Origin: Nostoc sp. HK-01 | GTDB taxonomy: Bacteria > Cyanobacteriota > Cyanobacteriia > Cyanobacteriales > Nostocaceae | Length of the DNA stretch: 64,000 nt | Assembly (NCBI GenBank): GCA_003990705.1 | Contig: AP018318.1 | Location: forward strand, 4,901,501 to 4,965,500 | Direction: 5' to 3' | Part shown: positions 41,205-45,177 of the stretch, piece by piece | How the letters are laid out: every line of letters begins with the position of its first letter | Numbering within the stretch: the stretch's first letter is position 1 | Program-made: the position numbers and the translations under genes | The notes under the pieces: model-generated | Told to the model about the DNA's origin: nothing | The model's database searches: none | The model's input: the letters and a program-made list of their open reading frames with translations, nothing else

Positions 41205-41798
41205 ATGACTCTCCAAACCTTAGATAAAAATATCACAATTCTAGAACAGCGATTTCTCCTACCTGGACATTACACCTGGGAAGAACTGGAGAAAATAGAA
41301 ACCTTAACCGCAGATGCAGCAGGTTTGCGGATAACTTATCTTGATGGGTGCATTGAATTTATGACGCTTGGTGAACAGCACGAAATGATTAAAAGCGTGA
41401 TTGGGATATTATTAGCATTATACTTTTTTGAAAAAGGTATAAACTTTATCCCAGTGGGTAGCGCCACGCGTCGCGCCAAAGAAAAAAGTGCTTCCTTTGA
41501 ACCCGATGAATCGTACTATATAGGAGAGAAAAAAGAAAATCCAGATTTAGCGATTGAAGTTAATATCACCAGTGGCAGTATTGACAAACTAGAAAAATAC
41601 AAACGGTTTAATATTCCTGAAGTTTGGTTCTGGGAGAATAATCAATTTTATCTATATCGTCTAAAAAATGATAATTATGAGCAAATTCAACAAAGCGAAT
41701 TATTCCCAGATTTAGATATACAATTATTAACTAGTTGTGTTTTAATGCCTTCAATTATTGATGCTAGAAAACAATTTATGCAGGGAATTAAAAAATAG
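41205..41798 (+). CDS. Uma2-family putative nuclease (DUF820)
   Basis: 197 residues. Family marks are LPGHYTWEELEKIETLT, GLRITYLDGCIEFMTLGEQHE, and the PD-(D/E)xK-like core ENPDLAIEVNITSGSIDKLEKY followed by IPEVWFWENN. Uma2 proteins are very numerous in filamentous cyanobacteria and are predicted nucleases; what they cut is not known. It converges on the ParB-like gene 52 bp away. Acidic residues of the core appear intact. Confidence 0.85.
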   Translation: MTLQTLDKNITILEQRFLLPGHYTWEELEKIETLTADAAGLRITYLDGCIEFMTLGEQHEMIKSVIGILLALYFFEKGINFIPVGSATRRAKEKSASFEPDESYYIGEKKENPDLAIEVNITSGSIDKLEKYKRFNIPEVWFWENNQFYLYRLKNDNYEQIQQSELFPDLDIQLLTSCVLMPSIIDARKQFMQGIKK

Positions 41799-41850: not shown

Positions 41851-42606
41851 TTATTTAAAGAATATGCGTGACCAAATATCAACAATATCTACCATCTTGT
41901 CGGCGCTTATACCCTTAACTTGTTTTTTAGCACTAGGAATTGTTACTCTGGCTATTACATCTTTTAGAGATTCAAATTGTTTCTTCTTCCGTGCTTTTTC
42001 AACACTTTCAGCCACTTGAACAGCTTTTTTATCTGTAAATCCAGCCGTTCTTAATCTTAAAGTGAGTTCCAGTAGATTTAAACTATTAAATGCTTCTAAT
42101 GGTGTAATCTGCTTGGGTATTTGAGTTTCAAGTGACTTTATGTATTCATAAAGTTTTTGTCTTTCTTGCCTTTCTTGTGCTAACTCTACCCTTAAGTCAT
42201 TAATTTGCTTTTCTATTAAACTCAATTCATGCTTTTCCAAGCTTAATTCAGATTGGTTGGTTTCTCTTGATACCTTATTTTCTATATTGTTAGAATATTT
42301 AAGTTCTTTAAAAGCAGATACTTGCTTAAATATTGTATCTTCATTCTTCGGTGAAATGACAAAAGCATTTACCATTTCACCTTTTCGTGGATTTTTTTCC
42401 TTTGCTTTTACAGCAGCATAGTACTCAAAATGCCCATCAATAACTGTATAAGTTTCTGCATCTGTTGGTTTTAAAACTAATGGTCTTATAATTCCTCCAC
42501 TTTCTATAATCATATCTGCTAAGTTGTCGATATCAGCCTCAGCAAAATTTGAACGCGGAATATTGGAATTAATGTCTTTCACATCTACAAGATAAAACTT
42601 CATCAT
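41851..42606 (-). CDS. ParB-like protein with coiled coil and C-terminal helix-hairpin-helix
   Basis: 251 residues. The N-terminal 90 residues fit the ParB/sulfiredoxin fold: VDVKDINSNIPRSNFAE, GGIIRPLVLKPTD and TVIDGHFEYYAAVKAKE. A coiled coil follows (about 118-165, LIEKQINDLRVELAQERQER). The C-terminus has KARKKKQFESLKDVIARV and VKGISADKMVDIVDIW, which look like helix-hairpin-helix DNA contacts. A canonical ParB central HTH is not seen. ATG overlaps the stop of the upstream nuclease-ParA gene (TAATG), so the two are coupled. Probably a DNA-bound partner of that ATPase; target site unknown. Confidence 0.75.
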   Translation of the reverse strand: MMKFYLVDVKDINSNIPRSNFAEADIDNLADMIIESGGIIRPLVLKPTDAETYTVIDGHFEYYAAVKAKEKNPRKGEMVNAFVISPKNEDTIFKQVSAFKELKYSNNIENKVSRETNQSELSLEKHELSLIEKQINDLRVELAQERQERQKLYEYIKSLETQIPKQITPLEAFNSLNLLELTLRLRTAGFTDKKAVQVAESVEKARKKKQFESLKDVIARVTIPSAKKQVKGISADKMVDIVDIWSRIFFK

Positions 42607-44024
42607 TAATTAATCCCCATTTTTTGTAAAACTTCATCTGCCAAAATTTCAAACTCCATAGCAGATTGTTGAGCGTTAGATTTAACTTCTGCATATTTAA
42701 TAACAGACTTAGGATCAGGATACTCTAATTCTCCAACTATTATTGTCTGGTTCATACACTCTGACAACACTGTTCTATCATAAATTACTGCTTCCATCAG
42801 AGGTAGATTATAGCGTTCTAATATTACTTCTCTTTGCTTTGGAAATGTGTATTGTAAAAATTTAGCATTTGTTGAAATTTTAGAAGCAACAATACCCATT
42901 ATATTGATAGGTAATTTACCTATATCATCTCTATATTCATTAACTTGCTTAATAAAATTTCTTACTGTCGGTAAACCTTGGTTGGCAAATGGTTTTAAAT
43001 CGGATGGAATGATTAAGTAATCAGCTGCAATCAAGGCAACCTCAGCATAATAATCTCTTGAAGGAGGTGTATCAATAATCACAATATCATAGTTGCTTTC
43101 TACCATATTCAGTTTTTTTACTAACCTACGTCTAGTAGCAGCAATTTTATTTAGTGTATCTTGGTACTCAATCAAAGTTATATGAGAAGGTATTACATCA
43201 ATCTCAGGATTATTAAAGTATTGAGACTGACGAACAATATCTGGAATATAATTAAATTCTCCTGATTCTATTAAATGGTATACATTTTTATCTTTTAAAT
43301 CATCATCTTCTTCAAATTGAAATTTAATTAGCCCTGTAGCAAAAGTAGTATTTGCCTGAGAATCGATATCAATTAAAAGAACCCTTTTACCTTTTTTACT
43401 TAATGCTGCTGCAAGGTTGACAGCAACTGTTGTTTTTCCAACACCGCCTTTATTATGGTATATTGCAATGGTTTTCATAGAATTTTTTCCCTGAGCTGGT
43501 AAATTTAATTCTTTTTCAGAGTTATGAATTGTTGCACTATCTGTTAATTGGTTTTTGTTGAGGCTATCTCTACCAATTAAATCTTTAATTTCTTCTAGCT
43601 TTGTCTCTACATCCTTCCCATAACAAGAGAAAACCAACTTAATATCATCGCCTGATTTTTCATAAATTCTAATCTCTTTGCCATTAGTCAACAAACCATA
43701 TCTCACATTCAAGCTGGTTAAATAATGCCTGAGTCTGAGAAAGTGATTATTTAAGTTTTGCTTAGGATGCTTTGCCTCCATCACCACACTCAATGGTGAA
43801 TTAGCATCTATGACAAAGGGTAAGACTTGTGCTGCAAATGCTAGAAAATCTAATCGTATGCTACCAACTGCGACTTCTTGATGCCAGGTATCGGGGGTAT
43901 ATCCTAACTGTGGTAGCAAATATTGAACGATGAGTTTACTTTCAACTTCGCTTTCGTTACGACACAACTCAGAATTAAAAGGCAAATTATTTACCTCTAT
44001 AGAGTTTAGTTTATGGAAAAACAC
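42606..44024 (-). CDS. Fusion of HsdR_N-type nuclease domain and ParA ATPase
   Basis: 472 residues from GTG 44024. Residues 20-150 match the type I restriction R-subunit N-terminal domain: NESEVESKLIVQYLLPQLGY, then RLDFLAF and VVMEAKHPKQNL, which give the acidic and E-x-K residues of a PD-(D/E)xK nuclease, and YGLLTNGKEIRIYEK. From about 183 comes a complete ParA: YHNKGGVGKTTVAVNLAAAL, LLIDIDSQANTT and VIIDTPPSRD. An internal ATG (43478) with AGGGA ten bases upstream could also give a free ParA. It starts a two-gene operon with the ParB-like gene. Joining these domains is unusual; function (plasmid-like maintenance, defence or DNA-end handling) is inference. Confidence 0.85.
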   Translation of the reverse strand: MFFHKLNSIEVNNLPFNSELCRNESEVESKLIVQYLLPQLGYTPDTWHQEVAVGSIRLDFLAFAAQVLPFVIDANSPLSVVMEAKHPKQNLNNHFLRLRHYLTSLNVRYGLLTNGKEIRIYEKSGDDIKLVFSCYGKDVETKLEEIKDLIGRDSLNKNQLTDSATIHNSEKELNLPAQGKNSMKTIAIYHNKGGVGKTTVAVNLAAALSKKGKRVLLIDIDSQANTTFATGLIKFQFEEDDDLKDKNVYHLIESGEFNYIPDIVRQSQYFNNPEIDVIPSHITLIEYQDTLNKIAATRRRLVKKLNMVESNYDIVIIDTPPSRDYYAEVALIAADYLIIPSDLKPFANQGLPTVRNFIKQVNEYRDDIGKLPINIMGIVASKISTNAKFLQYTFPKQREVILERYNLPLMEAVIYDRTVLSECMNQTIIVGELEYPDPKSVIKYAEVKSNAQQSAMEFEILADEVLQKMGIN

Positions 44025-44292: not shown

Positions 44293-45177
44293 ATGGGATA
44301 TGTAATTGCTACTGCAAATATGAAAGGCGGTGTCGGGAAAACTACTCTCACCGTCAACTTAGCTACTTGTTTAGCGAAAAATTACGGTAAAAAGGTACTA
44401 GTTTTAGATTTAGATACCCAAATTAGCGCGACACTTAGTTTAATGTCCCCTTTAGATTTTGCCAAGCGTCGCAAACAAAGACTGACATTTAGATATCTCA
44501 TCGACGATGTTATCAATCCAGATCCCAACAGTAAGGTAACAATTAACGATATTATTCAACCCCAAATTTGTGGACTTTCTGAACTGAGTTTATTACCGGG
44601 AGATATCGACTTATATGATGAGTTTGTGGTGTCAGAAATGCTGCATAAGCAAACGGTTGCTTTTGGTGAACAAAACTTTGAAACAGTTTGGAACCGTTTT
44701 GAAAGGGTTTTGATTAATAACATTTTAAAACCAGTCCGTGATGAGTATGATTTTATTCTTTTAGATTGCGCTCCTGGTTATAATCTTTTGACTCGTAGCG
44801 CCTTAGCTGCGAGTGATTTTTACATTCTCCCCGCCAAGCCAGAACCTTTATCTGTGGTGGGAATTCAACTTTTAGAAAGACGCATTGGCCAGCTAAAAGA
44901 TAGTCACGAACAAGAAGCGAAAATAAATATCAAAATATTGGGAATTGTCTTTAGTATGTGCAATACTAATTTGCTTACTGGCAGGTATTACAAACAAGTT
45001 ATGCACCGAGTTGTCGAAGATTTTGGTGTAGAACAAATTTGTAAAGCACAAATTCCTGTTGATATTAATGTGGCTAAAGCTGTAGATAGTTTTATGCCTG
45101 CGGTATTGAATGCACCTCAATCTGCTGGTTCTAAAGCATTTTTGCAGTTAACTCAAGAGTTGTTACAAAAGTTGTAA
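44293..45177 (+). CDS. ParA-family ATPase
   Basis: 294 residues, all ParA. Deviant Walker A NMKGGVGKTTLTVNLATCLA, LVLDLDTQISATLSLM, and FILLDCAPGYNLLTRSALAA are present, plus GRYYKQVMHRVVEDFG near the end. Such ATPases position DNA or protein cargo on the nucleoid. It faces away from the nuclease-ParA operon across a 268-bp gap that includes a decayed copy of the dispersed palindrome and no clear parS dyad. No ParB lies downstream. Related stand-alone ParA genes occur in other cyanobacteria; a cargo-positioning role is possible. Confidence 0.88.
   Translation: MGYVIATANMKGGVGKTTLTVNLATCLAKNYGKKVLVLDLDTQISATLSLMSPLDFAKRRKQRLTFRYLIDDVINPDPNSKVTINDIIQPQICGLSELSLLPGDIDLYDEFVVSEMLHKQTVAFGEQNFETVWNRFERVLINNILKPVRDEYDFILLDCAPGYNLLTRSALAASDFYILPAKPEPLSVVGIQLLERRIGQLKDSHEQEAKINIKILGIVFSMCNTNLLTGRYYKQVMHRVVEDFGVEQICKAQIPVDINVAKAVDSFMPAVLNAPQSAGSKAFLQLTQELLQKL

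Follow-up and report, generated by a model that had tools for sequence, protein, structure and literature searches.

The window analysed here comprises 64,000 nucleotides of Nostoc sp. HK-01, whose genome measures 7.52 Mb; it sits at 4.90-4.97 Mb on a contig of 6.49 Mb. It carries a compact two-gene operon on the reverse strand. The first gene lies in an open frame of 472 aa at 42606-44024 (-), which reaches back to a GTG at 44024. Its predicted long form, an HsdR_N-ParA fusion of 459 aa (42606..43985, -), starts at a TTG at 43985, where homologues begin as well, with AGAGG as its SD sequence. An HsdR-type PD-(D/E)xK nuclease domain matching HSDR_N_2 occupies ORF residues 16-157 (43554..43979, -) and is followed by a poorly conserved linker (residues 158-182; 43479..43553, -). 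The linker carries the SD-like signal of a nested ATG start codon at residue 183 (43476..43478, -), from which a 290-aa ParA, predicted also as a separate product, extends to the end of the gene (42606..43478, -; AAA_31, E 3.7e-55). The fusion stop overlaps the start of the second gene as TAATG. This second ORF (41851..42606, -) encodes a ParB-like partner of 251 aa, composed of a ParB_N-type domain (residues 1-95; 42322..42606, -), a long helix or coiled coil according to AlphaFold2 secondary structure (residues 120-162; 42121..42249, -), and an exchangeable C-terminal module of the HhH-type class c1 (residues 165-249; 41860..42114, -). The sequence thus confirms the original prediction of an HsdR_N part and a full ParA in one frame, overlapping a ParB_N/coiled-coil/HhH gene.

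Upstream, on the opposite strand, lies ParA2, a divergent second ParA gene of 294 aa (44293..45177, +; AAA_31) that constitutes a conserved neighbour. Among the ORFs listed near ParA2 in the window, the sole ParB-like gene is the operon's own. Just past the 3' end of the operon, also on the opposite strand, is a gene for a Uma2-family putative endonuclease (41205-41798, +). The nearest named relative is Nostoc spongiaeforme (92%). The host chromosome of the window also harbors a second, divergent copy of the two-gene plan at G000:C1:401943 (L002), assigned to type C.

The fusion is widespread among cyanobacteria. The window protein matches 68 of 386 cyanobacterial genomes (E<=1e-25), and a profile of types A (the window type), B, and C matches 69/386, distributed over 41 of 142 genera (E<=1e-60). 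In 50 of the 69 profile-matching genomes, by our own count, a single match spans both domains; the remaining profile matches show one domain per row, which reflects genes split in two, stand-alone ParA, or a row spanning one half of a long frame. Type B fusions measure about 450-530 aa and are accompanied by a different ParB-like partner. One scan of genome contigs provided 167 relatives, including 80 named loci, all with cyanobacterial titles. The partner adjoins the fusion in 78 of these 80, and the two loci without it (L090 and L107) lie on contigs that end within or right after the gene. Spacing between the two genes ranges from a 4-base overlap to a 3-base gap in 74/78, with L061, L084, L095, and L096 as exceptions. 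The conserved pairing that had been proposed as a check is therefore present, and an accidental join in one genome is ruled out by the spread of the fusion over many genera. Within the same genus, genome G352 shows no match to the fusion family though ParA2 is present.

Conservation of the nuclease domain was assessed in 106 full-length type A fusions, window included, out of 117 loci from which shorter or weaker ones were dropped. E24, E28, D59, E83, K85, H94, Y101, and N114 are each present in 106/106. Six of these residues (E24, D59, E83, K85, Y101, and N114; E10, D45, E69, K71, Y87, and N100 in A3 numbering) are invariant in 32 rows covering types A, B, and C, and this core is kept although identity to the window drops to 20-30%. 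HSDR_N_2 matches 31 of the 32 domains (E<=0.01). In seven locus pairs, which like the pairs used in the exchange counts below are mutually non-independent, the nuclease domain has a dN/dS of 0.05-0.24. In the ParA part, K192, K197, D221, and D318 are likewise present in 106/106, with K192 and K197 forming the deviant Walker A. The claim of a restriction-type nuclease domain is thus upheld by its PD-(D/E)xK motif residues.

Structure prediction, suggested earlier as a check on this domain, agreed in part. The nuclease residues are in place in the sequence, and AlphaFold2 models most of ParA well, as it does residues of about 80-157 of the fusion; residues 48-77, however, are modelled poorly (pLDDT <50). 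Since D59 lies in that stretch, it is the sequence that supports the assignment of the nuclease fold. Searched as a profile against the PDB, the nuclease domain gave 8 chains at E<=1, with no HsdR structure among them. Its best match, RPB_PLP3_R6 (E 2.7e-5), presumably a designed repeat protein going by its name, was judged spurious, with four weak repeats. Foldseek, run with the whole fusion model, gave 50 rows of ParA/MinD-type proteins.

These results bear on the reading in which the HsdR_N part only binds DNA or dimerises and the unit places a cargo on the nucleoid, as McdAB and other ParA systems do. ParA/MinD ATPases position many cargos (PMC10241942), and dN/dS is higher in the ParB-like gene than in the ParA part in 7/7 pairs, as a cargo adaptor might show. 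Metal-site residues, however, would hardly have been kept in 106/106 had catalysis been lost, and cargo positioning appears improbable.

The nuclease domain is not retained everywhere. Seven nuclease-less ParA relatives (L121-L126 and, similar to these, L129) were found, six of which keep a ParB-like neighbour; L125 has none and that of L129 is short. No convincing upstream nuclease remnants were detected at these loci (best E 0.003). In the ParA tree, the nuclease-less proteins fall within the fused clade, with five changes between the fused and unfused states by parsimony, at least two of them forced by well-supported branches. A single clade of six nuclease-less ParA, L129 being excluded, is rejected with a p-AU of 0.0007, a value that is too favourable because the members of the group were chosen in the light of an initial tree. 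From these trees, the nuclease appears to have been lost more than once, leaving ParA and ParB-like pairs. Because the two persist without it in 6/7 relatives, the enduring core consists of ParA and the ParB-like protein, to which the nuclease is an optional addition; where the domain is kept, its motif residues are undecayed in 106/106. A different arrangement occurs at L128:2274-5474 (-), where an SF1 helicase (AAA_11 then AAA_12) lies upstream of a type A ParA in place of HsdR_N. This helicase is in frame with ParA but behind an in-frame TAG, and shows a weak match to an MTES_1575/DUF559-type nuclease; it represents a further DNA-processing enzyme linked to this ParA.

The nested start is among the strongest features of the operon. 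At codon 183, immediately ahead of the first strand of ParA, 102 of the 106 fusions have ATG and 4 have GTG, and no other codon occurs there. An SD-like motif (GGAG, GAGG, AGGA, or AAGG) lies 5-16 bases upstream in 77/106, versus 452/5300 (8.5%) at random in-gene positions. The excess holds after thinning to 68 rows (50/68 vs 296/3400) and in 14 rows less than 70% identical (8/14 vs 65/700). The window itself carries a weaker form outside the four counted motifs, AGGG at about 43489-43492. Linker dN/dS exceeds that of both flanking domains in 5/7 pairs; one pair does not follow and one is undefined. Met also occupies the position in 8/9 type B fusions. In nuclease-less ParA relatives, the protein starts at the corresponding codon or at one adjacent to it. 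The earlier remark that the ATG at 43478 could yield ParA alone is therefore well founded. Because this internal start is conserved and has a ribosome-site signal, the first gene probably makes both nuclease-ParA, from the TTG, and ParA alone. The long form appears to start at TTG in 88/106 fusions, with an SD-like motif in 81/106, so that the short form may be the more strongly made.

An unused nested start would explain the same codon in another way, with the Met left over from the original start of ParA and the purines before it kept because of the peptide that they encode. This concerns the nested start alone and is compatible with every function considered here. It accords with the architecture of the fusions, each of which is a domain joined to a former ParA start. 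Met is, moreover, missing from the position in L136 and in the type C copy L002, the one type C copy checked. Against this reading, GTG is the sole replacement, in four separate loci (L023, L027, L095, and L109), and other Met columns of the fusions drift to non-start codons. Of the 71 Arg codons that fall within the last five codons before the nested start, 58 are AGG, versus 364/2049 across the fusions. We consider disuse of the nested start unlikely.

The partner possesses a ParB N-terminal domain and departs from canonical ParB in several respects. The GERR motif, which belongs to the CTP site of ParB, is replaced by G-[HD]-[FL]-E-Y-Y, and the position of its second Arg is Glu in 101/108 partners and Arg in none. 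There is no N-terminal tail ahead of ParB_N, and Pfam scans identified no HTH family. In the AlphaFold2 model, a single long helix follows ParB_N and leads to a small domain at the C-terminus. No parS-suggestive repeat family was found in 5 regions. The enriched 12-mers listed resembled, by eye, a neighbouring coding gene.

The C-terminal module is subject to repeated replacement. Among close pairs within set identity ranges, 48/140 share at least 75% identity in ParB-N but less than 60% in ParB-C. At the DNA level, exchange was seen in 77/172 such pairs, and in 25 of these collinearity resumes over most of the 1.5 kb that follows. At least 19 module changes map onto the fusion tree, with ParB rows of 180 aa or less excluded. 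The C-terminus of the ParB-like protein thus behaves as an exchangeable cassette on a ParB_N-type hub. The exchanged modules include HhH and SAP/Rho_N types, which are usually non-specific DNA binders. In five Microcoleus-type loci (L115:8826-9926 and equivalents in L111, L112, L113, and L116), the type A operon is followed downstream by a type-B-like partner gene, which combines ParB_N with Rho_N.

Type A copies do not appear to belong to plasmids, one of the locations that had been suggested for verification. Among the best 5000 plasmid records, 0 matched the window-type fusion at >=80% coverage; the type A nuclease domain matched 5 plasmid records, none at >=80% coverage, and the ParB-like partner matched no plasmid record at E 1e-5. 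A role of type A as a plasmid partition locus was rejected accordingly. A phage origin of type A was also rejected, as 145 phage records included none with >=80% coverage. Among the 80 viral-contig loci listed, all but L143 match from residue 168 on, which corresponds to the ParA part.

The sister type C occupies a different setting, on two plasmids and a putatively viral contig. A separate search located type C in 39/386 cyanobacterial genomes and 29/142 genera. The IMG/VR contig, 58 kb long, holds a complete copy at L143:2806-4829, with overlapping genes for proteins of 447 aa and 227 aa. In Nostoc sp. UHCC 0870, type C is carried by two plasmids, at NZ_CP091917.1 3095-5136 and NZ_CP091922.1 21543-23606; these copies are 62% and 55% identical to the L143 protein, and they were the only matches in 72,556 plasmid records (E<=1e-30). 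No match to type C was found in the phage collection (E<=1e-20). A site-specific integrase gene lies near type C on both plasmids. Both also carry a ParM/StbA gene (50,000 of 55,062 bases of the larger one were covered); one has, in addition, two genes annotated as ParB and two for AAA ATPases, whereas on the other there is one more AAA ATPase, annotated for chromosome segregation. Because of these other partition genes, type C is probably not the sole partition system of either plasmid, and its candidacy as a plasmid partition locus was dismissed. On a Thermus thermophilus plasmid (L138:2851-8123), ParA, ParB, and an N-6 DNA methylase stand in a row, unfused, and the methylase N-terminus resembles the HsdR_N part.

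The surroundings of the operon are largely those of housekeeping genes. Within the 25 commonest of 95 neighbour Pfam families, glycosyltransferases, ParA2, tRNA synthetases, and PLP-dependent (threonine-synthase-like) enzymes prevail. Three genes flanking the window operon were scanned, and none of them is a methylase or specificity gene. PADLOC 2.0.0 did not assign the window genes to a known anti-phage defence system by that system's own models; the ParA part showed similarity to PDC-M28B (E 1.6e-10), and mad2/mad8 were matched weakly. Applied to 126 neighbour proteins of 23 loci, PADLOC reported 52 families (E<=1e-10), and the list was unchanged with 122 proteins, four being left out. The 25 families shown are PD-T4-6, mad6, and MkoA models with 3 proteins each, which we take to be ordinary kinases. 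The control, 113 proteins from 20 arbitrary chromosomal stretches, gave 46 families, the 25 shown occurring in 2-3 proteins each. These were mostly the same models, plus mad2, mad3, mad8, HEAT-ARM_XIII, and C3a214; in both lists, no family beyond the 25 shown reaches a higher protein count than these. A defence-island setting is disfavoured because the neighbourhood is no richer in such matches than arbitrary stretches, and the defence function suggested in the original prediction gains nothing from the genomic context.

ParA2 occurs in 98/386 cyanobacterial genomes (E<=1e-55) and lies within 3.5 kb of the operon in 20 of the 50 genomes holding both. At least 33 of the 80 named loci have it as a neighbour of the operon. 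In three of the 20 genomes (G062, G116, and G360) the nearby copy is more divergent, at 51-54%. Since ParA2 adjoins type A, type B (G074 and G289; G185 by identity and length), and nuclease-less ParA (G360) alike, its proximity suggests that the two are functionally linked or that they insert at a common site.

Several of these observations could be accommodated by a role in chromosome upkeep, in which a ParA/ParB-like unit organises or segregates the many genome copies and the nuclease serves as an optional cutter of tangled or broken DNA. The absence of window-type copies from the plasmid records covered, the mostly housekeeping surroundings, the frequent proximity of ParA2, and the repeated origin of nuclease-less pairs are all in line with such a role. 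The patchy distribution, with no match even in the same-genus G352, is nevertheless difficult to reconcile with it, as is a partner with neither a detected HTH nor GERR, nor any parS-like repeats found nearby. Exchange of the C-terminal module and a plasmid or viral sister type would also be unexpected for housekeeping segregation. Chromosome upkeep is a serious explanation, somewhat less probable than the one that follows.

The reading that we tentatively favour, at somewhat less than an even chance, is a two-gene DNA-targeting nuclease module, more likely directed against foreign DNA. The first gene would supply scarce nuclease-ParA from the TTG and ParA alone from the ATG. The ParB-like protein would choose or clamp target DNA through its exchangeable end and recruit ParA. 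ParA-ATP dimers would then assemble on the target and pull nuclease-bearing subunits together, long and short forms mixing so that paired nuclease domains could cut. Cutting or nicking would take place only where enough long form collects, with free ParA acting as a threshold setter. Foreign or misplaced DNA would more often be the target than the cell's own chromosome, because the ParB-like end is replaced much as restriction systems replace their recognition parts.

Evidence for this nuclease module includes the intact motif residues with low dN/dS and a core invariant across types, the tight operon linkage, the nested start with its SD-like signal, and the repeated C-module exchange. The sister type C, located near an integrase on two plasmids with other partition genes and on a putatively viral contig, points in the same direction. 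Several results weigh against it, however. PADLOC matches resemble those of arbitrary stretches amid mostly housekeeping neighbours, and ParA with its ParB-like partner persists without the nuclease. The usual non-specificity of HhH and SAP/Rho_N modules weakens the idea of target choice. Part of the predicted nuclease domain is modelled poorly, and in L002, the copy checked of the type that occurs on mobile DNA, the nested start is missing. If the module is nonetheless real, a partition engine can be converted into a DNA-targeting nuclease, and the prediction would be two products, one catalytic site, and swappable ends.

The make-up of the fusion is undescribed in the text covered by a full-text literature search that included PMC12839542, PMC10853773, PMC5512222, and PMC7159879 and left most subscription papers outside its scope. 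This outcome agrees with the earlier statement that no described system of the same make-up was known. In general terms, the unit is a ParA/ParB-type module, a known kind, with the nuclease fusion as a new variation; as a whole, the two-gene cyanobacterial unit looks like an undescribed DNA-targeting machine. ParA and ParB proteins move or sort DNA, and restriction nucleases destroy it. With ParABS systems (Soj/Spo0J, Noc), the operon shares a ParA ATPase with a deviant Walker A and an overlapping downstream ParB_N gene. It differs from them in the nuclease domain on ParA and in a partner with no HTH found, a lost GERR, no tail before ParB_N, and no parS-like repeats found. ParB-like DNases without ParA partners are noted in PMC5512222.

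With type I restriction enzymes, the fusion shares the HsdR-type N-terminal nuclease domain with its D...ExK motif. Its motor, however, is ParA, with no SF2 helicase in the protein, and neither a methylase nor HsdS occurs among the genes scanned beside the window operon. Recognition domains of HsdS are swapped in restriction systems, and the exchanged DNA-binding part of the partner resembles them. In a restriction system, too, a nested start produces a form of McrB without its N-terminal domain, although McrB is an AAA+ GTPase, a motor unrelated to that of the window fusion. A parallel among ParA proteins is incC of plasmid RK2, a single parA gene whose alternative start codons yield the long and short forms IncC1 and IncC2; in the available text of PMC2666795, the IncC1 extension is not called a nuclease, and the system is a plasmid one with KorB. 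McdAB, the carboxysome positioning system, likewise employs a cyanobacterial ParA-type ATPase, which the fusion matches, but the window partner differs in having a ParB_N domain. A still more tentative proposal is a DNA-targeting class apart from both restriction-modification and ParABS, defined by a nested-gene ParA nuclease and a ParB-like protein with swappable DNA-reading ends, with chromosomal A and B branches and a mobile C branch among cyanobacteria.
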